31,916 nt of DNA from a virus. Positions 7,462 to 31,916 of this stretch are shown here, piece by piece (within the stretch, counting starts at the first letter, position 1; each line of letters starts with the position of its first letter). The stretch covers positions 1 through 31,916 of the IMG/VR virus record IMGVR_UViG_3300025087_000238; one strand, written 5' to 3'. A model generated the notes under the pieces. That model was given only the letters and a program-made list of their open reading frames with translations, had not been told where the DNA came from and searched no databases. A program made the position numbers and the translations under genes.

Positions 7462-7788
7462 TCAGCCCTCCTCGTCGGCGGCGGCGTGAATGGCGAGCTC
7501 GCGGGCGTCCAGCCAGGGATCCCCGGTCAGGACCGGGTTCTCGGCATCGGCCAGGAACTGCGGCTTCGTCTGCACGTCCCACGCCTCCTCGGACAGCAGC
7601 GCCAGCTCGCAGGCGTAGGCCTCGATCGGGTCGACCTCGTCAGGCCGCAGCCCCAGCCGCCCCGCCCACCGGACGCAGGCGTTCCACCACGGGTCGACGC
7701 GACGCCGCCGCGCCCGCTCCCTCACCCGCGCGAAAGGACTCGGCGCGCCAGGCCTCGTACTCCGCCATGATCTGGTTGCAGAGCCCAT
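7462..7788 (-). CDS. T-like extension of the tail assembly chaperone, probably made by +1 (or -2) frameshift
   Basis: The open frame covers 108 codons from an ATG at 7788, but only the part from about 7731 downward has convincing protein character (VDPWWNACVRWAGRLGLRPDEVDPIEAYACELALL). It lies in the +1 frame relative to the 172-aa chaperone. The frames can be joined at TCC-TTT-CGC (TTT at 7735-7733): tRNA-Phe can slip from TTT to TTC in the +1 direction. That would give a fusion of about 231 aa ending DARELAIHAAADEEG. A -2 slip, known for Mu-type phages, reaches the same frame. Independent initiation at the ATG is possible but would add a basic low-complexity leader. The stop is 4 nt before the tape measure gene. 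Confidence 0.68.
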   Translation of the reverse strand: MGSATRSWRSTRPGAPSPFARVRERARRRRVDPWWNACVRWAGRLGLRPDEVDPIEAYACELALLSEEAWDVQTKPQFLADAENPVLTGDPWLDARELAIHAAADEEG

Positions 7789-8158
7789 CGGGGATCTGCT
7801 CGAAGGGTGCCGCGCTGAACCAGGCCGGCAGACTCGACCCCGGGGACGCCGCGGTCGGTGTGCCGAGCACGTAGAGCGAGGCCGCGTAGAAGATCGCGTC
7901 CTGCGCGAAGGGCGGGATGGTGGACCACGGCAACCCGCCCGTCATCTGCGCACAGCGCTGGCCGACGAGACGCGCGTCGTCCCCGGTCCGACCGCGCAGG
8001 ATGAACAGCCCGGACTGCGGCCCCTTGCCGTCGGTCAGGTAGACGTTCGTGACCTTGACGCGGAAGTAGCGGTCGTCCTCGGTCGGGTCGGTCTTGGGCG
8101 CGGCTCCGCCCTCCGCGAGCTGGGCCAGCGTCGGCCCCGGCTGCTGCGTGGTCTCCAT
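7640..8158 (-). CDS. Tail assembly chaperone (G-like, short form)
   Basis: 172 aa, ATG at 8158, beginning 6 nt after the tube gene ends. Its position between tail tube and tape measure is the hallmark of the G/GT (lambda), E/E' (P2) and gp41 (Mu) chaperones, which coat the tape measure before tube polymerisation. The body (residues 25-142) is ordinary folded sequence (DDRYFRVKVTNVYLTDGKG, PPFAQDAIFYAASLYVLG). After about residue 142 it turns into Gly/Ala/Arg filler (AGEGAGAAASRRP), whereas the overlapping frame becomes a well-composed protein. So the biologically meaningful continuation is in the other frame, reached by ribosomal frameshifting. Function is inferred from location and this overlap; sequence similarity to known chaperones was not tested. 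Confidence 0.75.
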   Translation of the reverse strand: METTQQPGPTLAQLAEGGAAPKTDPTEDDRYFRVKVTNVYLTDGKGPQSGLFILRGRTGDDARLVGQRCAQMTGGLPWSTIPPFAQDAIFYAASLYVLGTPTAASPGSSLPAWFSAAPFEQIPDGLCNQIMAEYEAWRAESFRAGEGAGAAASRRPVVERLRPVGGAAGAAA

Positions 8159-19934: not shown

Positions 19935-21671
19935 TCAGAACAGGGTCCGCTGGCGCGGGTCGGTCCCGCCCTGCCCGCCGAAGAGGCTCCCCTGTCCGCC
20001 GGCCGGCTTCGCCCGGTTCGGCGCCGGCTCTCCGCGGAAGAGCGGCAGCGACTCCGAGGCCGGCTTGTCGGTGCGGTAGTTCCGGTCCTTCAGGTGGCCC
20101 TGGGCGCGCCGCAGGTTCGTCTGCAGGGCGAGCAGCCGGGTCCCGAGGTTGCCGCCCGAGGCGCCCTCGGATTCCGCTCGGCGCATCAGGCCCTTCAGCT
20201 CGACCAGCCCGCGCTCCGCGGCGTTGATGTAGCGCGCCAGGTGCTCGCGGCTCGACCACTCCCCGGTGCGCCCGTTGATGCGCTCGAGGCTCCCGAGCCG
20301 CCGGTCGATCTCGTCGGCGGACTGCTGGATGGCCGCCGAGACGTGGGTCTTGCGCGACGGCGGGCCGGCGAGGTCGGTCTGCTGGGCGCCCATCTCCAGG
20401 GTTGGCCGCCGCTCCGCGATTTGGCGGGCAAGGGTCTGCGAGACCACCGGCTTCGGCGGCGCCGCGGCCGGTCGGGGGGGCGGGGCCGCGCTGGAGACGT
20501 TCGGGCTCGCGCCGGCGGCGGCCTGCTGCGCCAGCTTGGCGAGCGCCGGGGAGGGCGGGGCCGCCGGCGCGGTCACTCCGCCGGTGCGCGCCCGGATCTG
20601 CTCGCGCAGCGCATCGGCCTTCGACGAAGACGAGCCGGGCGCTGCGGCCCCGGGCGCCTTCCGCAGCTCGCTCGCGAACTCCACGCTGGGGTGGAAGTTG
20701 CTCGAGTAGTAGTCGTTCCCCGAGTCGTGGGCCGACTTCTCGTAGGCCCGCAGCAGCCCCCGGAGCTTCTCCTGGAGGGCCGCCCCGTCCGCGTGGAGCA
20801 GCGCCGGCGGGCGCTCCCCGGGGTTCCCGAGGGGGCCGTACTTCGCGTCGTGGGCGTGCCGCTCCGGGTTGCCGACCTGGACGCCCGGGGCCGCCTGGAC
20901 CTCGACGTGGATGGACGAGCCGCCGCTGTACTTGCGGGTGTTGACCGAGAGCTTCAGCCCCTTCGGCAGGTCGCCCGAGGCGATGGCCCGCTTGACGTCC
21001 TCGCGGAACAGGCGGGCGACCTCGGCGGTGTCCCGGCCGGCGTCGTACTTCGCGCCCAGGTGGCGCTCCGTCGTGTCGGGGTGGGCGGGGCGCTTCGGGG
21101 GCTCGCTCGGCTCCGCCGGGGGCCGCCGGTCCGCCAGGCTGACGACCTTGGAACCGGCGGTCTGCTCGGAGAGCTTCGCCGCGGCGGGGGAGGGCGCCGG
21201 CGTACCTCCGCCGGGCCCGCGGCGCTCGACGTCGTGCCGCAGCGCCGCCCGCTTCGCGTCGTCGGCCTCGTGGAACTTGCCGATCGTGGTCCGCTTGTTG
21301 TCGGGGTCGACGTGGGAGACCTCGTAGCTCGACAGGTGTTGGTCGTCGCCGTACTCGCGCCGGTGCTGGATCTCGTAGCTGTGCCCGCCGGCCTGGCGGT
21401 TCACCGACCAGCCGCTCGCGCTGGGGAACGACCAGCCGCGCCGGTGGGCGTCGTCCTGCACAGCGCTCCCGAGCGTCGGCTCCCCGCCGCCGCCGGACCC
21501 CTCATAGACCGGGACCCGTTTCCCGTTGTGGAAGGTGTGGCCGACGATCTTCCCCCCGCGGGGCCCGATCTCGATGACGTCGCCCTTCACCGCGAGGTCC
21601 GCATCCCGGTACTCCGGGCTCCCCCCGATGTCCGCCCGCCGCAACGCCAACACTCGCCGCTCACCGCCCAT
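19935..21671 (-). CDS. Polyvalent-like protein C: IGPRGG module, LPD29-like domain, two QxxLF motifs
   Basis: 578 aa, ATG at 21671 with GAGGTG upstream, directly after the portal. Residues 32-57 carry the shared module (VIEIGPRGGKIVGHTFHNGK). Residues 75-150 are a small domain with HSYEIQHRREYGDDQHLSSY. Residues about 214-335 resemble LPD29, a domain of polyvalent proteins (LKLSVNTRKYSGGSSIHVEV, then YYSSNFHPSVEF). AAAKL motifs lie in the linkers. The tail has QGSLF (560-564) and ends precisely with QRTLF (574-578), plus a degenerate QTDLAGPP (431-438) matching QTDLFGPP in the 314-aa protein. LPD29 assignment is by remembered pattern. I infer a virion-carried protein that meets the host replication machinery; a purely structural or decoy role is possible. 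Confidence 0.6.
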   Translation of the reverse strand: MGGERRVLALRRADIGGSPEYRDADLAVKGDVIEIGPRGGKIVGHTFHNGKRVPVYEGSGGGGEPTLGSAVQDDAHRRGWSFPSASGWSVNRQAGGHSYEIQHRREYGDDQHLSSYEVSHVDPDNKRTTIGKFHEADDAKRAALRHDVERRGPGGGTPAPSPAAAKLSEQTAGSKVVSLADRRPPAEPSEPPKRPAHPDTTERHLGAKYDAGRDTAEVARLFREDVKRAIASGDLPKGLKLSVNTRKYSGGSSIHVEVQAAPGVQVGNPERHAHDAKYGPLGNPGERPPALLHADGAALQEKLRGLLRAYEKSAHDSGNDYYSSNFHPSVEFASELRKAPGAAAPGSSSSKADALREQIRARTGGVTAPAAPPSPALAKLAQQAAAGASPNVSSAAPPPRPAAAPPKPVVSQTLARQIAERRPTLEMGAQQTDLAGPPSRKTHVSAAIQQSADEIDRRLGSLERINGRTGEWSSREHLARYINAAERGLVELKGLMRRAESEGASGGNLGTRLLALQTNLRRAQGHLKDRNYRTDKPASESLPLFRGEPAPNRAKPAGGQGSLFGGQGGTDPRQRTLF

Positions 21672-21685
21672 GCGTCACCTCACCG

Positions 21686-23371
21686 CTAAAGGACCCAGGA
21701 GTACGCCCGGACGAGGCTCTTCGCCGCCTCGCCGGCCTGCTCGTCGGCGAACCCACCGCTGACATCGCCCCCATCGGGCAGCGGGTCGTTCGCCCAGTCG
21801 TCGCCCCCGGGCGCCCCGGCACCCTCGCCCTGGGCCTCTGCCCCGGGCTGCCCCGCCCCACCGGGACCGTCCGCACCTTCGGGACCGCCCGGCCCGCCCT
21901 GGCCCTGCTGCGCCATCATCGCGGCCTGCTGCTTCTGCGCCTGCTGCGCGTTGTAGGCCGTGATGTACTGCGGGTTCAGGATGAGGTTCCCCAACCCGTT
22001 CGGGTCCTTGCCCATGTTGTCGAGCGCCCGGACCTCGTCGACCGTGCGGGACGACTCGACGAGCGTCTTGGAGAGCTCGGCGCGCTCCTTCTCGGTCATC
22101 GCGCCGAGGCCCAGGAACTCCAGTTCCAGGTCCGGGTTCAGCCGATGGACGATGAACTTGTTGATCCACGAGCTGATGGCGGTCGCCAGCGGGCGGAGAC
22201 CCTTATCCTTGCCGGCCTTCAGCTTGGCCTCCGGGGAGGACTCGAACATCGCCCCGCGGTTCCCCTCTGAAGCGTAGTAGAAACCTACCTCCGTGGCATC
22301 GATCTGCCACAGACTACACATGAGGCGGAAGCAGGCGTTGATCCACTCCGCGAACTCCATCTCTTTGTTGGAGACGCCGAAGGGAACCCACTTCACGTCG
22401 GCACCCTCGCCCTGGGGGTTCGCGACGACCATCCGCCAGGCGTTCTGGACGCCGCGGGCCATAAACATCAGCGAGCGCTGGAGAGCCCGGAACTTCTGCG
22501 GGTGCATCGGGCCCATCACGGCCAGCATCCCGCGCGGCCCGCCCTGCCGGAACCAGTTGAGGTTGTGCGTGAACCCGAAGAGCAGGCCCGACATCACCTC
22601 CAACATTTCGGTCAGCTCTGGATGACCATAGCCGTTGCTGCGGACGTCGGTCCGCGGGCGCCGGATCCCGAAGCACAGCTCGCCCGGGGCGAAGTATTGC
22701 GTCGGGGTGTCGTGGTGGATCTGGCAGAACTGCGCGTCGGCCTTGTCGTAGTCGCCGAAGGGGTTTTGCGGCCGTACCCGGTAGATGAGGCCGGCGTCGG
22801 CGGGGTGCCAGCGGTGCGGGACCCCCTTCTCGTCCGGGACGACCTCGAAGACGCCCGCGTCCAGCACGAGCGAGTCGTAGGCCAGCGCCCGCAGGAAGTC
22901 GTCGAAGCTGGGCCGGGTGAAGACCTCGTGCGGCTCCTTGATGGTCCCCGACGTCTGCAGCAAGGACTCGACGCGCTCGATCTCCTTGCGCTCCGCCGGG
23001 GTCGGGCTGTGGTTCGAGCGGCCCCGGATCGCGATCTGGTGGCCGAGCCCGTAGGGGTCCTCTCGGGCCAGGCTGAAGCTCGCGATCTGGTTGCAGCGGG
23101 TCGACAGGATGCAGCTCGCCCAGGGGGAGAGCGCCATCTGCCGCAGGGCGTAGGTGGAGTAGCGGCTGTGCGTCCGCATACCCTCCATGAAGTCCTGCGC
23201 GACCTGCAGCTCTTCGGGGTCGTACTGGTAGGAGAAGCCCTCGCCCTGCTGGCGGTCGACGTCCAGCCGGGAATCCAGGTCCCCGGGCCGCGACATCTGC
23301 CGGGCGCCCCGCGGGAGACGCCCGAGCGGCCGGGAGCCGACCGGGACGAGCGCCTGCGACTGCTCAGCCAT
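21686..23371 (-). CDS. Portal protein
   Basis: 561 aa, ATG at 23371. The body shows portal features: early helices (YDPEELQVAQDFMEGMRTHS, TYALRQMALSPWASCILSTR), a clip/wing region (FDDFLRALAYDSLVLDAGVF, KGVPHRWHPADAGLIYRVRP), and a crown-like stem (LNWFRQGGPRGMLAVMGPMH, SLWQIDATEVGFYYASEGNR). The C-terminal 100 residues are Gln/Gly/Pro rich (QQAQKQQAAMMAQQGQGGPG) and disordered. Twelve copies would form the ring through which DNA is packaged and leaves. The PF04860-type resemblance is clear, and neighbours (Mu F-like protein, protease, capsid) agree. Notably, terminase genes do not precede it here. Confidence 0.88.
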   Translation of the reverse strand: MAEQSQALVPVGSRPLGRLPRGARQMSRPGDLDSRLDVDRQQGEGFSYQYDPEELQVAQDFMEGMRTHSRYSTYALRQMALSPWASCILSTRCNQIASFSLAREDPYGLGHQIAIRGRSNHSPTPAERKEIERVESLLQTSGTIKEPHEVFTRPSFDDFLRALAYDSLVLDAGVFEVVPDEKGVPHRWHPADAGLIYRVRPQNPFGDYDKADAQFCQIHHDTPTQYFAPGELCFGIRRPRTDVRSNGYGHPELTEMLEVMSGLLFGFTHNLNWFRQGGPRGMLAVMGPMHPQKFRALQRSLMFMARGVQNAWRMVVANPQGEGADVKWVPFGVSNKEMEFAEWINACFRLMCSLWQIDATEVGFYYASEGNRGAMFESSPEAKLKAGKDKGLRPLATAISSWINKFIVHRLNPDLELEFLGLGAMTEKERAELSKTLVESSRTVDEVRALDNMGKDPNGLGNLILNPQYITAYNAQQAQKQQAAMMAQQGQGGPGGPEGADGPGGAGQPGAEAQGEGAGAPGGDDWANDPLPDGGDVSGGFADEQAGEAAKSLVRAYSWVL

Positions 23372-23380
23372 CGGGTTCTC

Positions 23381-24325
23381 CTACGCCGCTCGTTCGGCGA
23401 CCTGGGCGGCGAGACGCTCCGCGCCGCTCAGGTCCTTGTAAGCGCTGCCGATCCCAAGGGAGTCGCGCATGTCGTCGATGAGCGCCGACAAGTCCCGGGC
23501 CGACCACCTTTGAAGCTCGTCGGAAGTCGGCACGTGGCTCGTTCCCTGGCCGTAGTCGGAATCGTGCCAGTGCGACGGCGTCATGCGGCGGATGAGACTC
23601 CGCGCGTAGTGAAGCTGCTTCTCGGACGGCCCGCCGCCACTCGGGCGCGCGCCTCCCCCGCCGGACGGTGCCGAGCGCTGCGGAGTCGTCTCGCCCCGCT
23701 TCTCGGCCGCGGAGGCGTCATGGGCCTTCTCGCCGAGCCGCTGGATCCGATCGTGGGCCGCCGTGTACTTGTCGTGCGACAGCCGCCAGGCCCGGTGTTC
23801 GCCGTTCCACTTCGCGCCCAGGGCTGCCAGGCTGTCCTTAACGGGGTATGTGGCCCCGGTGAGGTTGACGCTGCGCCCGTCGCGGGTGGCCTTGATACCG
23901 CCGTGCCAGCGGGACTCGCCAGCGGGCAGAGCATAGTCCTTCGCCGCCGGCTTCTCGGCGGATCGGGCGGCGGTCTGCGCTTCGAGCTTCGCCGCCGCAG
24001 ACGGTTTCTCCGCCGCCCACGGTAGCGGCTTTGTGGGCTTTGTCACCCGCCGTTCCATGGCGGCCTCGCGGGGCCGCAGGGCGATCGTCCGGGGCGGGCC
24101 GAACAGGTCCGTCTGCGCCTCCCCGGCTGCCGACCGCCGTTCCCGCTCCTCGGGAGGCTTCAGGGTCAGCGTCCGCGGGCTGTCGAACAGCCGCTGCTGC
24201 GACGGGCGCAGCGCCCCGCCGACATGCCCTTCGTACTCCGCCACGGGCTTCCCGCCGTGCCCAGCGTGGTGCCCGACGATGCGACCGCCACGCGGTCCGA
24301 TCTCGATGACAGGTCGGTCAGCCAT
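23381..24325 (-). CDS. Polyvalent-like protein B: IGPRGG module, DUF5710-like domain, two QxxLF motifs
   Basis: 314 aa, ATG at 24325, overlapping the upstream gene by 8 nt. Residues 5-32 carry the shared module (PVIEIGPRGGRIVGH, GGKPVAEYEGH). Then follow QQRLF (43-47) and QTDLF (71-75), each inside a SP/PP-RT-L-LKP or IALRP phrase also found in the 1033-aa protein. Residues 150-186 match the DUF5710-like pattern (TGATYPVKDSLAALGAKWNG, then HRAWRLS) seen in replication-linked phage and plasmid proteins. The C-terminal region (233-290; SEKQLHYARSLIRRM, SARDLSALIDDM) resembles a common tail of mobile-element proteins. Not recognised as a single known family. It sits upstream of the portal gene by 9 nt. 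Inferred to be packaged or early-acting; domain names are from memory. Confidence 0.62.
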   Translation of the reverse strand: MADRPVIEIGPRGGRIVGHHAGHGGKPVAEYEGHVGGALRPSQQRLFDSPRTLTLKPPEERERRSAAGEAQTDLFGPPRTIALRPREAAMERRVTKPTKPLPWAAEKPSAAAKLEAQTAARSAEKPAAKDYALPAGESRWHGGIKATRDGRSVNLTGATYPVKDSLAALGAKWNGEHRAWRLSHDKYTAAHDRIQRLGEKAHDASAAEKRGETTPQRSAPSGGGGARPSGGGPSEKQLHYARSLIRRMTPSHWHDSDYGQGTSHVPTSDELQRWSARDLSALIDDMRDSLGIGSAYKDLSGAERLAAQVAERAA

Positions 24326-24647
24326 CGGCGCCTCCGAGGGCCCGGCGCAGCGCCGCGACGTCGGCCGAGCCGGCCTCGCGCAGCTCGCCCGTGGTTGGCA
24401 CCGTGGCGACGAACACGGCGTCGTCGTCGGGGTGCGGGTGGAGCCCCTCGAGCGGCAGGTTGAGGGCGTCCAGGGCCTTCACGACCTCATCCCCGGGGCC
24501 CGACACCGCGAACCCCTCCGGGACCGCCTCCACCCCGAGATCCCAGGTTCGGAGCAGGTCGGGGAGCCGCAGCGGGACGGCGGGGCGGGGCGCCAGCCGC
24601 AGGACGCGGGGCGCCTGCGGGCCCAGGGCGACGATTCGGGGACGCAT
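24318..24647 (-). CDS. Small protein of the head-entry operon, unknown
   Basis: 109 aa, ATG at 24647 preceded by a strong AAGGAGG, and ending in an 8-nt overlap with the 314-aa gene. The sequence (MRPRIVALGPQAPRVLRLAP, EVVKALDALNLPLEGLHPHP, FVATVPTTGELREAGSADVA) is balanced and the third codon position is strongly GC, so it is likely translated. The end resembles a small helical domain. No function can be named. The first 160 nt overlap the 3' end of the preceding proline-rich gene in a different frame. Confidence 0.65.
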   Translation of the reverse strand: MRPRIVALGPQAPRVLRLAPRPAVPLRLPDLLRTWDLGVEAVPEGFAVSGPGDEVVKALDALNLPLEGLHPHPDDDAVFVATVPTTGELREAGSADVAALRRALGGADG

Positions 24648-25134
24648 CGGGGCCTCCTTGCTTGGCCGCGGGCTTCGGCTTCGGGCTCGAGCCGGCGCCC
24701 TTCGCGAGCCGCATCGCGCCGGTCACCCAGTCGGTCCACTCCGGCTCCTCGCCGACGGCGTGGAAGGCCTCGGCGGCCTCCGGCCGGCGGCGGTAGTAGG
24801 CGGCGACCCGGGCCGCGAACTTCCCCGGCGCTTCGTGGGCGAGCGGGTGGAGCTGGACCGGGAAGCGAGCCGGCCAGGGCGCCTGGGGGTCGCCCGCGCG
24901 CGCCTTCCAGGTCTTGTAGAGCGGCACCAGGACGGTGTCGGCGAAGGTGTCCTCGGGGGTCTGGTTGAGGCCCTTGTCGGTGAGGTCGTCCCGCTCGGAG
25001 CGCTCGTCCTCGGCGGAGCCGTCGTCGTCGCCTTCATCGTCGCCCTCGGCGGGGTCGTCGGGCTCCCGGTAGTCGGGATCCTCGTCCTCGGACTTCCGGG
25101 CGATCTGGCGGGCCAGGCGGCGCAGCGGATCCAT
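24487..25134 (-). CDS. Acidic/proline-rich head-entry protein, unknown
   Basis: 215 aa from ATG at 25134 (MDPLRRLARQIARKSEDEDP); a longer frame upstream is only a shadow of the 1033-aa gene. An acidic segment (DEGDDDGSAEDERSERDDL, 34-52) is followed by a folded helical core of about 80 residues (TPEDTFADTVLVPLYKTWKA, EAPGKFAARVAAYYRRRPEA, WTDWVTGAMRLAKG). After residue 147 it becomes Pro/Ala/Gly/Arg filler and runs 161 nt into the next gene. Either the tail is a disordered extension or a frameshift has moved the true stop. The gene has its own promoter at 25174-25203. Function unknown. Confidence 0.58.
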   Translation of the reverse strand: MDPLRRLARQIARKSEDEDPDYREPDDPAEGDDEGDDDGSAEDERSERDDLTDKGLNQTPEDTFADTVLVPLYKTWKARAGDPQAPWPARFPVQLHPLAHEAPGKFAARVAAYYRRRPEAAEAFHAVGEEPEWTDWVTGAMRLAKGAGSSPKPKPAAKQGGPDASPNRRPGPAGAPRPAAGAPPRRPAAAPRPAPNLGSRGGGGPGGVRGVGPRG

Positions 25135-25173
25135 TGGCGGTCTCCCCGGACGACGTCCCCTGTGTGCGCGCCT

Positions 25174-25203
25174 ATCGTAGCGCCGCAGAGAGGGAGTGCG
25201 CAA
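25174..25203 (-). promoter_or_regulatory. Late promoter upstream of the 24487-25134 gene
   Basis: Minus strand TTGCGC (25203-25198), 18-nt spacer, TACGAT (25179-25174), about 40 nt before the ATG at 25134. The spacer contains CCCTCTCTGCGGCGC, close to the sheath promoter spacer (TTCCTCTCCGCCGCGG). It lies in the 89-nt gap after the 1033-aa gene. Confidence 0.6.
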
Positions 25204-25223
25204 CGGCGCAGGAGGTCTCCGGC

Positions 25224-28200
25224 CTACTCGCCGTTCTCTCGCGCCTGGCGCTCGCTGTGGGCGAAGTCGCTCTCGCCGGGGAGGCGGGCGAGCTTCACGG
25301 TGCGGGGGCGCTTCTTCTTCTCGGGCGGCGGGTCTTCCTCGCCGCCGACGACCACCAGGGCATGGCGCTGCAGCTCGAACTCCTTCATCTTCCCGTCGGG
25401 GTCGGAGACCCGGAACGCCCGGACGTAGGGGTGTTCCTGGAGGCGGCCGACCGTGTAGTACCCCTCGATCTCGTAGGTCTCGATGGCCTTCCCGGGCTCG
25501 TCCGGCGGGTCGAGGTTCACGAAGTGGACGCCCGGCTGCGCGTGGGGCTCGAAGAGCCGCGCGCCGGACTCGTTCGCGGCCATCATGGCCGCCTTCCAGT
25601 CCTCGTGGTAGACCGCCGAGCGCGCGCTGTCGCGGACGTTCCGACGCAGGCCTTCCCGCTCCTCGTCCGTCACTTTCGCGTACTTCCCGGAGTAGATCGG
25701 GCTCTTCAGCTCCTCCCGGTACTTCGCGTCGGTCGCGGACTCCACCCGCTGCTCGAACGTTTCCTCGCGCTGGCGCCCCTCTTCCAACAGGTCGTGCAGC
25801 CCCGTCCCCTCCTTGAAGCTCGGCAGCAGGATCGGCTGCTTCATCCCCTTCGGCATGAACGCCTTGTGGCCGCTCCCCTCGGCCGGGCCGACGAGGTTGA
25901 CGCGGGACACCGTCGTCTCGGGACGCCCGCGGTACTGGTCGTGCTTCTTCACGGTGAACTTCACCCGCATCTTCACGCCCTGCTCGAAGCTGCGCGGCAG
26001 GTTCGACGCGAACCACTTCAGGGTGTGGCCGTCCGGGGTCTCCATGGTGACCAGGGTCGACTCCCCCCACTGCCCTGGTTCCATTTCGCGGGTGGCGATG
26101 ACCGTGACGTCGGTCTCCGCCTTCTCGCCGGGCTTGCCGAAGTGCCCGGCCTCCGCCGCCCGCTTCTTCGACAGGATCTCGCCCTGCTCCCGCTGGTAGC
26201 CGCGGACGAGGTACGCCGCCATCCCGAACACGTCCTTGTGGACGTAGTCCTCCGTGATGACCGTCCGCAGGTTGTGGCCGAAGGTGTCCAGGGACTCGAC
26301 GGGGACCTCGACGTACTTCTTCTTCGCCCAGGCGATCGTCTTGCGCGCCAGCTCTTCGTCGGCGGCCTCGGGGTTGATGCTCCCGCCCGCCCCCAGAACC
26401 TTGCGGGCCTCTTCGACCGGCATGAACAGGGTCCGCAGCGCGTCGTCCACCGTCGCCGTCTTCGGGTGGAACTCGTCGGAGGCCTGCGCCGCCGCTTTCG
26501 AGACCCAGCCGGTCTCCCGGATCGCCCAGGCGACGTGCGACAGAAAGCGGTGGAGACCGGCGCCCTCGGGCTTTCCGCCACCGCCGAAGCCGTCGCTGCC
26601 CTCGCCGTCGTCGGCGGCCATGCCGGCGAGGATGCGGTTCGCGTCGGCCCAGATCGTGAGGGCGTTCATCGCCCCCTCGGGATCATGGCCGCCCAGGAAG
26701 TCCTTGACGCAGGACGTCCCGATCGTCTTGTGCTCGCCGCTCTTCTCGCTCTTGACGATGTAGGCGCCCTTGCGGTCGCGCTTCATCTGGCAGTGGTCGC
26801 AGTCCCGGTGGTGCTCCCGCGTGCGGAGCTTGAGCGGGACCTCTTCTCCGGCGGCGGTCTTGAAGATCCAGCCGCCGTTCGGGGTCTCCTTCGCCTTGGC
26901 GATGAACTTCCAGCCCGCGAGCTGCGGCGGGTCGCCGATGAGACGGACCTCGCAGACCTGACGGGTGACAACCGTCTTGTAGGTCTGGTGGTGCATCTGC
27001 ATTTCGTGGGTCTCGGTCTCGACCCGACGGGAGCCGGGGACCTCCTCCCACTTCAACTCCGGGACGTGGAGCCGGCGCGCCCGCTTGTTGAGCGCCTCGA
27101 TCTCCTTCTCGAAGCGCTTCAGGTGCTGCGTCTGGATGATGGCCGTCTTCGGCCCGCCCTTGCCGCCGTCGCCTTCGTTCTCGGCTTCGGCGGCGGCGGC
27201 TTCCTCCCGCTCGACGGCGTGGGCCTCGACCTGCCGCTCGAGCTTCTCCGCCGGCTCCGGGGCCTCCGGCTCGTCCGGCTTCCGCCGGCGGCGGGCGCTC
27301 TCCTCGGCGGCTTCCTGCCGCTGGCGCTGCTCCGCTGCGGTGACCTCGTCGGGGTTCACGCGGGCGGGGGTCGCCAGCGTCTCCGATCCGGCGGCGTTCC
27401 TGCGGTTCTTCTCGTCCACGGGAAGCGCGTCCCACTCCGCCTTCAAGCGCATGTACTCGCCCGGCTGGCTCAGCTCGGCCGCGGACCATTGGAGCCGAAC
27501 GTCGCTCGAAGGTTCGACCGGCTTCTCGGGTACGACCACGCCGCGCGCCTGCCGCATCCGGTCGTAGCCGCGCTTCGTGACGTAGCCGCCCATGTTGTGG
27601 AGTCCCCACAACTCCTGGAAACGGGTTGCCACCTTCACCGCGTCGTTGGCGCTCCAGCCGATCTCTCTGGCCGCCGCTGCGGCCTCCTTCTTGGTGGGGA
27701 ACTTCACCAAGTGGCGCCAGACGTCGATCATCCGCGAGCCGGTCTCGTTGGACGTCTCCGCGATGTCGAACGACTCGGGATCCGGGCCACGAGTGGGGGC
27801 CCACCCGGGCGACTTCGGATCGTCTACCGCTCTCACTGCCACGTCCGGCTTCCGCTCCCGCGACTGCCCCTCCAACTTCGCCGCTGCCGGCGTCGGCTCC
27901 GGCGCCTTCCACTCCGCCTTCGGGGCCGGCGCCGCGGCCGGTTCCGGCTCATGGTGCTGCACCGCCGCCCAGGGGAGCGGCTTCGCCAACTTCGCGACCC
28001 GGCTCCCGGACGGCGGTTCGGGGTGGGCGACGGCGACCGTCCGCGGCGCCCCGAACAGGTCGCCCTGCGGTGCATCGGTGGCGCGCCGGCGGGGCTCCTC
28101 CGGGGGCTTCAGCGCGAGGGTGCGCGGGGCGTCGAAGAGCGACTGCTGCACCGGGCGCTGGTAGGGCGCTTCCCGGTGCGGCCCGGCGCCCAGGTGCTGG

Positions 28201-28325
28201 TGCTCCTGCCGCTGGTACTCGAACTCCGGCTTCCCGTCCTTGCCGAACCGTTCCGCGATGATCTTCCCGCCACGGGGGCCGATTCGGACGATGGGGTGGG
28301 CGGCGGGCGGCGAGTAGTCGGCCAT
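25224..28325 (-). CDS. Polyvalent-like protein A: IGPRGG module, cysteine domain, OB-fold-like segment, two QxxLF motifs
   Basis: 1033 aa, ATG at 28325 with GGAGG 6 nt upstream; first gene of the late operon. Residues 11-37 carry the shared module (PIVRIGPRGGKIIAERF, DGKPEFEY). QQSLF (60-64) and QGDLF (87-91) follow, each within APRT phrases. A long Pro/Glu/Ala linker (125-390) holds a helical patch (FPTKKEAAAAAREIGWSAND). Residues 420-555 form a domain with DCDHCQMKRDRKGAYIVKSE and TIGTSCVKDFLGG (C509, C512, C539), seen in phage and plasmid proteins. Residues 738-812 look like an OB-fold (TLVTMETPDGHTLKWFASNL, VKMRVKFTVKKHDQYRGRPE), probably binding nucleic acid. The C-terminal 190 residues are charged helices. 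No HExxH or nuclease motif was found. I infer an ejected DNA-associated protein. Confidence 0.62.
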   Translation of the reverse strand: MADYSPPAAHPIVRIGPRGGKIIAERFGKDGKPEFEYQRQEHQHLGAGPHREAPYQRPVQQSLFDAPRTLALKPPEEPRRRATDAPQGDLFGAPRTVAVAHPEPPSGSRVAKLAKPLPWAAVQHHEPEPAAAPAPKAEWKAPEPTPAAAKLEGQSRERKPDVAVRAVDDPKSPGWAPTRGPDPESFDIAETSNETGSRMIDVWRHLVKFPTKKEAAAAAREIGWSANDAVKVATRFQELWGLHNMGGYVTKRGYDRMRQARGVVVPEKPVEPSSDVRLQWSAAELSQPGEYMRLKAEWDALPVDEKNRRNAAGSETLATPARVNPDEVTAAEQRQRQEAAEESARRRRKPDEPEAPEPAEKLERQVEAHAVEREEAAAAEAENEGDGGKGGPKTAIIQTQHLKRFEKEIEALNKRARRLHVPELKWEEVPGSRRVETETHEMQMHHQTYKTVVTRQVCEVRLIGDPPQLAGWKFIAKAKETPNGGWIFKTAAGEEVPLKLRTREHHRDCDHCQMKRDRKGAYIVKSEKSGEHKTIGTSCVKDFLGGHDPEGAMNALTIWADANRILAGMAADDGEGSDGFGGGGKPEGAGLHRFLSHVAWAIRETGWVSKAAAQASDEFHPKTATVDDALRTLFMPVEEARKVLGAGGSINPEAADEELARKTIAWAKKKYVEVPVESLDTFGHNLRTVITEDYVHKDVFGMAAYLVRGYQREQGEILSKKRAAEAGHFGKPGEKAETDVTVIATREMEPGQWGESTLVTMETPDGHTLKWFASNLPRSFEQGVKMRVKFTVKKHDQYRGRPETTVSRVNLVGPAEGSGHKAFMPKGMKQPILLPSFKEGTGLHDLLEEGRQREETFEQRVESATDAKYREELKSPIYSGKYAKVTDEEREGLRRNVRDSARSAVYHEDWKAAMMAANESGARLFEPHAQPGVHFVNLDPPDEPGKAIETYEIEGYYTVGRLQEHPYVRAFRVSDPDGKMKEFELQRHALVVVGGEEDPPPEKKKRPRTVKLARLPGESDFAHSERQARENGE

Positions 28326-28442: not shown

Positions 28443-28514
28443 GGGAGGGTGGCTCAGCGGTAGAGCAGCGGCCCGATAAGCCGCAGGTCGCAGGTTCGAG
28501 CCCTGCCCCTCCTA
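28443..28514 (+). tRNA. tRNA-Ile (anticodon GAT)
   Basis: A 72-nt cloverleaf: acceptor GGGAGGG (28443-28449) with CCCTCCT (28507-28513; first pair G-U), T8, D stem GCTC/GAGC (28452-28455, 28463-28466), anticodon stem GCGGC/GCCGC (28468-28472, 28480-28484), loop CCGATAA, 5-nt variable loop, T arm GCAGG-TTCGAGC-CCTGC (28490-28506), discriminator A28514. The anticodon GAT at 28475-28477 reads isoleucine ATC/ATT. Position 33 is C rather than the near-universal U, and no CCA is encoded. It differs clearly from the usual rRNA-operon tRNA-Ile, so it may be phage encoded or a decayed gene. Position just outside an inverted repeat and at the end of the phage block also makes it a candidate attachment site, but no duplicated core was found. 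Confidence 0.8.
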
Positions 28515-28525
28515 CTCGTGCCCCT

Positions 28526-29141: not shown

Positions 29142-30056
29142 TCAGCCCTCGGCGCCTTCGTTCGTCTTCGGCTTGTTGCGCGTGCGGCGCGGCCCCTTCT
29201 CCGCCTCTTCGGCGTCTTCGCGCGCCACGAGCATCGCGACCAGGTCGGAGACTTCCCAGAGGCGGTCCGTGACCTTGGCGGCCATCGCCGGGGTGACCCG
29301 CAGCGAGGAGTGGATCCGGCAGAAGTTGTAGTGGAAAAAGTGCAGCGCGATGGCGGCCGCGTGGTTCTGCACCTTCTTCGAGAAGGCGTTGGTCAGGCGC
29401 GTGAACCGGCGCATGCTCATGCGCATCGTGAGGTTCTGGCGCTCGACGTAGGACGTGGAGACCAGCGCCTCATCCGGGCGTCCCGTGACGGCGATCTTCT
29501 CGACGCCGGTGCAGACCGCTGGGCTGTAGCGGGTTTCTGGGTTCCGGTTGCTGCCCTCGCCGCCGTACTGCTTGATGAGCTGCGCGAAGTCGATGTCGCA
29601 GCCGAAGGCGTCTTCAACGGCCTGCACGTAGAGCTTGAGGCCGTCGCTGGTGAGCTGCACGCGGCTCGCCAGACGGCTCGCCAGGTCCTTGATGAACGCG
29701 CCCGCGGTGTACCCGTCGCGGTCCCCGACCAGCCAGCTCGGGACGAGCTTCGTCTCAGCGTCGATGGCGGTCCAGGTCCAGACGTCGCCGACGCCAAACT
29801 GACCCTTCATGCTGACGGGAACGTTCTTCTGCTTGGAGTAGCAGAAGGACCAGATCTCGTCGACCTCGATCTGCTGGCAGGGGAGGTTCCGCAGGGCCTT
29901 GTCCTGGTACTCCGAGCAGACCTCGCCCAGCGCCACGAGGAGCTTGGTGACGGTGTTCTTGGAGACGTCCGCGATGCGAGCGGTGGCCCGTACCGAGTTC
30001 CCCTCGACGAGGAGCTTGGTGATGAGGACGCGGGTCTTGTTGTCGAGGCGGTTCAT
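29142..30056 (-). CDS. IS1-type DDE transposase
   Basis: 304 aa from ATG at 30056 (MNRLDNKTRVLITKLLVEGN). Residues 8-45 are a helix-turn-helix (GNSVRATARIADVSKNTVTK). The DDE-type catalytic set is Asp66 in VDEIWSF, Asp138 in LTSDGLKLY, and Glu205 in YVERQN, with the conserved ending FHYNFCRIHSSLRVTPAMAA. The start fits a promoter whose expected transcription start is the A of the ATG, so a leaderless message is likely; an upstream ATG at 30092 lies inside the promoter. No terminal inverted repeats could be found close to it, so it looks like a solitary gene, perhaps moved or inactive as an element. The C-terminal tail is acidic then basic (DAEEAEKGPRRTRNKPKTNE). Confidence 0.85.
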   Translation of the reverse strand: MNRLDNKTRVLITKLLVEGNSVRATARIADVSKNTVTKLLVALGEVCSEYQDKALRNLPCQQIEVDEIWSFCYSKQKNVPVSMKGQFGVGDVWTWTAIDAETKLVPSWLVGDRDGYTAGAFIKDLASRLASRVQLTSDGLKLYVQAVEDAFGCDIDFAQLIKQYGGEGSNRNPETRYSPAVCTGVEKIAVTGRPDEALVSTSYVERQNLTMRMSMRRFTRLTNAFSKKVQNHAAAIALHFFHYNFCRIHSSLRVTPAMAAKVTDRLWEVSDLVAMLVAREDAEEAEKGPRRTRNKPKTNEGAEG

Positions 30057-30063
30057 GTTCAGA

Positions 30064-30092
30064 AAGGTACCAGAACGCGCGGACGCGGTCAA
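30064..30092 (-). promoter_or_regulatory. Leaderless promoter of the transposase
   Basis: TTGACC (30092-30087), 17-nt spacer, TACCTT (30069-30064), then 7 nt to the ATG at 30056. Transcription should begin at or within a base or two of the start codon. No ribosome binding site precedes the ATG. Confidence 0.65.
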
Positions 30093-31524: not shown

Positions 31525-31794
31525 CTACGTCTTAGTCCAGCGGACGCTGGACGCCTTTCTTGCGATCGCCGTGCGTTCCTCCGCGCTGAGCTTCGCAGCG
31601 CGGGCCTTGCCGCCTTTCAGCCCGCCCAGGCGCCCCAGGACGACGGCGGCGGGGTTCTTCTCGGGGGTCTCGGGTGCAGGGGAGGGGTCGTCTGGCGTGC
31701 GACGCTTCTCGTCCTTCTCGCCGGTCGCCAGCTCCACGATCATCTTGGCGAGCTGGCTCGGGTCGCGCGGGCGTCTGGGGTTCGCGTTGCTCAT
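31525..31794 (-). CDS. Histone H1-like small basic protein
   Basis: 89 aa, ATG at 31794. The start (PRDPSQLAKMIVELATGEKD) and the end (NPAAVVLGRLGGLKGGKARA, then AKLSAEERTAIARKASSVRW) match a family often annotated as histone H1-like or RNA-binding proteins in diverse bacteria. The GGxKGGKARA and helical RKA segments suggest nucleic acid binding. The middle is a Pro/Asp/Glu linker. Its ATG overlaps the stop of an upstream frame (ATGA), suggesting translational coupling. The ribosome binding site is weak. Biological role in this family is not established; the resemblance is from memory. Confidence 0.7.
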   Translation of the reverse strand: MSNANPRRPRDPSQLAKMIVELATGEKDEKRRTPDDPSPAPETPEKNPAAVVLGRLGGLKGGKARAAKLSAEERTAIARKASSVRWTKT

Positions 31795-31916
31795 GGGGAC
31801 AGCTTGCCAGCGGCCGCAGACCCGCGCAAGCCGCCGCCCGGATCAAAGTGACCCACTACCTCGTCGAGCGGGGTCTTGACGCCGTTCTTCCAGAGGTGCT
31901 CCAGGTGACCCAGGTC
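31791..31916 (-). CDS. C-terminal end of an ORF entering from the right edge, unknown
   Basis: An open frame of 42 codons from the window edge to TGA at 31793-31791 (DLGHLEHLWKNGVKTPLDEV, ending SAAAGKLSP). It overlaps the H1-like start by 4 nt. Residues 20-25 (VVGHFD) are encoded by the right 20-bp inverted repeat, and the sequence after it is Gly/Ala filler, so a cassette insertion may have replaced the original C-terminus. Too little is visible to identify it. Confidence 0.35.
   Translation of the reverse strand, partial: DLGHLEHLWKNGVKTPLDEVVGHFDPGGGLRGSAAAGKLSP
31841..31860 (-). repeat. Right 20-bp inverted repeat
   Basis: Exact reverse complement of 28568-28587. It lies inside the frame entering from the right edge. 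No identical flanking bases were found that would indicate a target duplication. Confidence 0.75.

Follow-up and report, generated by a model that had tools for sequence, protein, structure and literature searches.

Why would several proteins of one phage each carry the same short peptide twice? The question is raised by a 31,916-base fragment of a virus genome (GC ~71%), IMG/VR record IMGVR_UViG_3300025087_000238, which in its full length we call the window. Three of its genes, A, B and C, encode proteins with a common tag, IGPRGG[KR]I followed by GK..EY-like residues, which stands at the start of A and B and near the start of C. Each of the three also carries two pentapeptides of the form QxxLF, resembling the peptides by which bacterial proteins bind the DnaN sliding clamp. 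We propose, with a probability of roughly 0.52, that A, B, C and a fourth tagged protein, E, are virion-packed cargo whose QxxLF linkers dock on the host DnaN sliding clamp and so tether their effector domains.

The motifs are far more frequent than composition predicts. The first-pass annotation of this DNA had listed two QxxLF in each of A, B and C, and we confirmed all six (6/6) at the residues it gave, together with a degenerate QTDLA(G) site in C. Joint shuffling of A, B and C gave an expectation of 0.084 against the 6 observed, with a maximum of 2 in 5,000 shuffles. Among the other window proteins listed, there was a single further QxxLF (QSGLF, gene 7640-8158). C additionally has SLPLF, which takes the 'xLPLF' form described for DnaE2 polymerases (PMC3919608), and so arguably holds more than two candidate sites. 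B contains 2 Phe residues in total, both inside its motifs, and B and E alike use nearly all of their Phe in this way. The complete E was read from contig IMGVR_UViG_3300025117_000173 (L031), which is 99.996% identical to the window over 25,961 bases and reaches 7.3 kb beyond its right end. In this contig E turned out, unprompted, to be tagged and to hold two motifs and no more, QGSLFDAPRT and QGDLFGGPPRT. A further tagged protein there, F, has a peptidase-like domain (AstE/AspA family, match just below the cut-off) and zero QxxLF. The count of two motifs per tagged protein thus extends to E and fails for F.

The motifs were also said to lie in disordered regions. Their flanks consist of 77-93% disorder-promoting residues, the AlphaFold2 models show them as low-confidence coil, and the last motif of C ends the protein. 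Placement in flexible or C-terminal segments is therefore what composition and models indicate, with a confidence limited by the shallow or absent alignments behind the models. A second short motif of the type KLxxQxxxR recurs in the linkers of A, B and C (KLEGQSRER, KLEAQTAAR, KLSEQTAGSK and LARQIAERR, within 19935-28325).

Bacterial clamp-binding motifs are defined as Q-phi-x-[LM]-[FL] with mostly acidic flanks (PMC11139829), and in the clamp motif of the polymerase DnaE1 conservation is lowest at position 2 (PMC3919608). The six motifs in A, B and C and the two in E all have Q at position 1, L/M at position 4 and F/L at position 5. They share these residues with the motifs of DnaE1, Pol II/IV, MutS and Hda (QL[S/D]LF), usually together with S, D or T at position 3 and G or D at position 6, and they likewise sit in a flexible linker or at a C terminus (C ends in QRTLF). 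In 17 sampled DnaE1 motifs, such as QSDLFG and QSSLFG, Ser occupies position 2 in 13; what comes after it is mostly D/S/T/A, [LM]F and G or E. Further DnaE1 sequences have FMSLFD, FLDLFG and HMDLFG. The phage motifs agree with these in their S/D at position 3 and their G/D at position 6. We trained a profile on 27 DnaE1 clamp motifs only and scored it over 11,423 positions. The second motifs of E, A and B and both motifs of C took ranks 1-5, the first motifs of E and A ranks 7 and 8, the first motif of B rank 16, and the degenerate site in C rank 17. Seven phage motifs are thus in the top eight, where 0.59 would be expected at that score (shuffle mean). Mobile elements offer precedents: insertion sequence (IS) transposases (PMC4549789) and the plasmid initiator TrfA of RK2 (PMC4980987) are selfish-element proteins that recruit DnaN through QxxLF-type peptides. 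Those proteins are made in the cell, whereas the phage proteins probably arrive with the virion and have two motifs each.

The eight motifs did not arise independently. A, B and E have a common module, the tag plus two repeats of the block Q-x-x-L-F-[DG]-x-P-R-T-h-x-h (h, hydrophobic) spaced 27-28 residues apart. Their motifs are paralogues derived from a single linker by duplication, and the eight therefore represent about three or four independent origins. The argument that drift would not give such a set stands in so far as the count is far above chance, and must be tempered because the motifs of A, B and E partly reflect this duplication. We assessed conservation on the paralogues A, B and E in place of distinct phages. 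The motif blocks differ by 5-9 nonsynonymous and 8-14 synonymous changes per 34 codons, and the remainder of the module by 23-27 nonsynonymous changes per 37-44 codons. With few nonsynonymous against many synonymous changes, and the rest diverged, these substitution counts indicate that the motif blocks are under purifying selection. In C, both QGSLFGG and the C-terminal QRTLF occur without PRT; the pentapeptide can therefore stand alone and seems to form a unit by itself. Folded-domain relatives of A and C in named phages (Rhodococcus phage E3 gp102, Tunturi_5 gp318 and Myrna gp34) are without QxxLF, which marks the motif linker as an addition and not a part of those domains. The central domain of C is related to gp34 of Mycobacterium phage Myrna. 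The phrog_2319 domain of A (residues 393-812) has a Cys/His cluster and is found in many phages by itself, as a protein whose function is unknown.

What kind of proteins are these? Genes run leftward in the order A, a small gene, B, portal, C, a MuF-like gene, head protease, major capsid, connector, sheath and baseplate. The portal gene between B and C places A, B and C in the head/packaging module, which they share with the adjoining MuF-like, protease and capsid genes. Sheath and baseplate genes identify the source as a tailed phage with a contractile tail. Beyond F lies a gene for a large protein with a ddrB-ParB domain (1.6e-18) and a weak DarA_C match. On the strength of the head-module place, this neighbour and the common N-terminal tag, we liken A, B, C and E to the Dar proteins of phage P1 and to the polyvalent proteins, which are taken to enter the cell with the DNA (PMC5512222).

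Polyvalent proteins (Iyer et al. 2017, PMC5512222) are likewise linker-rich, combine a common terminal element with different domains and are encoded with virion genes. The neighbour has their ddrB-ParB domain and C a weak match to their LPD29 (E value 0.13), and polyvalent proteins of the LPD1 class also carry QxxLF; A and B, in contrast, match none of their Pfam domains. Clamps receive no mention in that paper (PMC5512222), and in the literature searched we found no paper linking polyvalent proteins to clamp binding. The Dar system (DarA, DarB and DdrB) also comprises several large, head-packed proteins with N-terminal targeting, DarB having a capsid-targeting sequence that is sufficient within 30 residues (PMC9024508), and the ddrB-ParB and DarA_C-like neighbour recalls it. 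However, the Dar proteins lack a common N-terminal consensus, in place of the conspicuous tag seen here, and QxxLF has not been described for them. Two further virus contigs have the tag on different proteins that lack QxxLF, so that tag and motif are separate modules, and the tag may be in widespread use for cargo. In those unrelated phage contigs (IMGVR_UViG_3300031772_006213, L015, and IMGVR_UViG_3300032330_002408, L018) it reads IGPRGGKIVGY...IYEGS/IYAGS, and the first of them has a variant, IGPRGGKWADP, on neighbouring genes.

From these features we suggest the following course of events. A, B, C and E would be expressed late alongside the head genes and enter the capsid by means of their common tag. 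After injection, the QxxLF short linear motifs in the disordered linkers would dock into the peptide pocket of host DnaN and hold the different effector domains at DNA-loaded clamps, whether at host replication forks or on the incoming or newly replicating phage genome. The action early in infection that the first-pass annotation put forward does not follow from genes of the head module; it would occur only if the proteins are packaged and injected, as their context suggests. The proposal that doubled motifs give avidity for the ring is also doubtful if it means two pockets of one clamp. Motifs in C are 14 residues apart, with nine residues between them, and in A twenty-two residues intervene; such spacings are short or borderline for spanning the clamp ring. 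Two copies would more plausibly raise the effective affinity by rebinding or by contact with more than one clamp than by bridging one ring. A short, mutable motif that predicts a DnaN address for injected phage proteins would make their binding inside the cell testable. If the clamp reading is true, virion cargo joins a short list of mobile-element clamp riders (transposases and plasmid initiators).

Similar motifs occur in other phage proteins. When viral contigs were scanned for two nearby QxxLF motifs, one case among the matches listed (80 loci) was in frame, a 2,467-residue polyvalent protein of an unrelated phage with LPD1, LPD5, 2H phosphoesterase and weak ART domains. It has five QxxLF against 0.147 expected (0/1,000 shuffles reached five), some of them near tag-like segments (...GKRHFVQPHTQGSLFGG...). 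Using its LPD1 region we drew 80 polyvalent frames, of which 62 were counted, or 55 after stricter deduplication. The 62 frames hold 40 QxxLF against 23.1 expected. Permuted motifs reach 0.5-0.9 of their expected number, and in 605 other frames from these loci QxxLF is at 0.7 of expectation. In the 55, QLxLF was observed 9 times (1.6 expected) and QxxLF[GEDS] 17 times (5.6 expected), counts reached in 0/200 shuffles each, and permuted motifs were at or below expectation. Textbook forms (QLDLF, QLSLF and QLNLF) are among them. The set was seeded by a protein chosen for its double motif (L187 = L237); minus the seed's five motifs, the count is 35 against ~23, and that of QLxLF is unchanged, as the seed has none. 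The QxxLF pattern is thus real in the LPD1 class, but its extension to polyvalent proteins in general is unproved. A second viral set, drawn by helicase similarity, returned the query alone.

Matches to QxxLF[DG]xPRT in IMG/VR are mostly chance or out of frame; the informative ones are a ddrB-ParB/helicase protein with three QxxLF (L065), a small protein starting QLSLFDAPRT, and phage DNA methylases (L053 and L069) with further clamp-like C termini, QPRLFEEPRT and QPRLFDEPRT. In the search for homologues of the A/B/E module, the extended motif matched once, apparently in a non-coding (antisense) frame, and this was taken as chance. Tentatively, and with less confidence than we place in the reading of this one locus, we suggest that clamp-docking linkers could be a general delivery address of phage-injected cargo, with unrelated phages having repeatedly added one to five QxxLF beside packaging tags or between domains, sending proteins to clamps on host and phage DNA.

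Several observations weigh against clamp docking. Position 2 of the motifs in A, B and C is Q, G, Q, T, G and R, never aliphatic as the strict definition demands, and the net flank charge of -2 to +3 is mostly positive, where acidic flanks are the tendency. A, B and E have an extra PRT-hydrophobic segment that bacterial clamp motifs lack. Conservation of this PRT-h-x-h about equals that of QxxLF. Selection is thus not confined to the pentapeptide and may act on an element larger than a clamp motif, as the two RTVALxP segments in the QxxLF-free ddrB-ParB neighbour (one of them QREAAGPPPRTVALAP) also suggest. F is tagged and has no motif. Searches for homologues of the A/B/E module recovered nothing but near-identical contigs of this phage from IMG/VR, and none from GTDB genomes. 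Ten polyvalent frames from bacterial genomes (LPD38 and LPD5) held 0 QxxLF against 3.4 expected, a failed replication of the LPD1 result. Relatives of the ddrB-ParB protein were not counted as support: their LF(G) sites keep the hydrophobics and vary the Q, and some LF sites may therefore be structural. In such proteins of phages and plasmids (L071-L082 and L065), two LF(G) sites stand ~45-50 residues apart after the ParB-like domain. The resemblance to clamp motifs drawn in the first-pass annotation accordingly holds for Q, L, F and positions 3 and 6, and breaks down at position 2 and in the flanks. The conservation it had named as a check is seen in the motif blocks among paralogues. Its clamp-targeting interpretation as a whole is partly supported.

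The strongest competing explanation, which we still consider unlikely, draws on some of the same observations. The block could serve phage assembly by helping to pack the tagged proteins, as a site for docking to, or processing by, scaffold, portal, capsid or head protease; its clamp likeness would then be incidental. Genes A, B and C adjoin portal, protease and capsid genes, block copies directly follow the tag, the PRT-hydrophobic half and QxxLF are conserved to about the same degree, and RTVALxP occurs without QxxLF in the ddrB-ParB neighbour. However, C has its QxxLF distant from the tag and without PRT, F has the tag and no block, and the tagged proteins of two other phages are without QxxLF. 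Furthermore, positions 3 and 6 agree with DnaE1 clamp motifs, and unrelated phage polyvalent proteins with other tags have QxxLF without PRT.

The same sequence evidence that points to docking would equally serve a rather improbable variant, in which the injected proteins block DnaN by competing with host polymerase and loader for the clamp pocket, stopping host replication. A phage protein directed against the host clamp has a precedent in gp168 of staphylococcal phage Twort, but that protein binds the DNA channel and inhibits loading, and does not act by way of a pocket peptide (PMC11139829). Tethering seems to us likelier than poisoning, since the domains to which the motifs are appended are large and otherwise diverse. 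Virion copy numbers, moreover, are usually far below clamp numbers.

The absence of any function is already disfavoured, and improbable. A low-complexity linker duplicated with the paralogues could have kept QxxLF through recent common descent, given the one module of A, B and E and its few independent origins; yet the Q, L and F codons still encode these residues despite widely different synonymous sites and a diverged remainder of the module. Furthermore, C bears its motif in unrelated surroundings, and B and E put nearly all of their Phe into motifs. Least probable by far is binding to a phage-encoded clamp in the service of phage replication and not of host takeover: bacterial-type motifs would presumably also fit the DnaN-like clamp of a large phage, whose gene could sit in the remainder of this fragmentary genome, but of the fragment's genes that were profiled, none was recognised as encoding a clamp, a polymerase or another replication function.

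Table 1. Tagged proteins, their motif sites and key neighbours. Positions are those of the window, or of contig L031 where so marked; residue numbers in parentheses.
Feature	Position	Strand	Remarks
Gene A, 1033 aa	25224..28325	-	N-terminal tag, two QxxLF in Pro/Ala/Arg linker, phrog_2319 domain
A N-terminal tag (12-37)	28215..28292	-	with IGPRGGKI
A motif 1, QQSLF (60-64)	28134..28148	-	inside QQSLFDAPRTLALKP
A motif 2, QGDLF (87-91)	28053..28067	-	inside QGDLFGAPRTVAV
Gene B, 314 aa	23381..24325	-	tag and duplicated linker as in A (50% identity); C-terminal part different
B N-terminal tag (from 6)	24227..24310	-	with IGPRGGRI
B motif 1, QQRLF (43-47)	24185..24199	-	inside QQRLFDSPRTLTLKP; poorest exact match to DnaE1 profile
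B motif 2, QTDLF (71-75)	24101..24115	-	inside QTDLFGPPRTIAL
Portal protein	21686..23371	-	between B and C
Gene C, 578 aa	19935..21671	-	tag, central domain, two QxxLF at C terminus
C tag (32-58)	21498..21578	-	with IGPRGGKI
C degenerate site, QTDLA (431-435)	20367..20381	-	inside QTDLAGPP; like B motif 2, Phe lost
C SLPLF (541-545)	20037..20051	-	xLPLF form, as in DnaE2 clamp motifs
C motif 1, QGSLF (560-564)	19980..19994	-	inside GGQGSLFGG, without PRT flank
C motif 2, QRTLF (574-578)	19938..19952	-	final residues before stop
Gene E, C-terminal 41 codons and stop	31791..31916	-	fourth tagged protein; tag and two motifs outside window, L031:6865-7470
ddrB-ParB/DarA_C-like gene, 1,576 residues	L031:3-4733		N terminus cut; next after F, upstream

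The ddrB-ParB neighbour ends in NQTSFL. Between A and E lies an IS1-family transposase gene (29142-30092, minus strand) with 53-61% identity over ~90% of its length to alphaproteobacterial plasmid copies (Mesorhizobium, Methylocapsa, Hoeflea and Acidiphilium), a weak hint at the host. A tRNA-Ile (GAT) is found at 28443-28515 on the plus strand, opposite to the phage genes.

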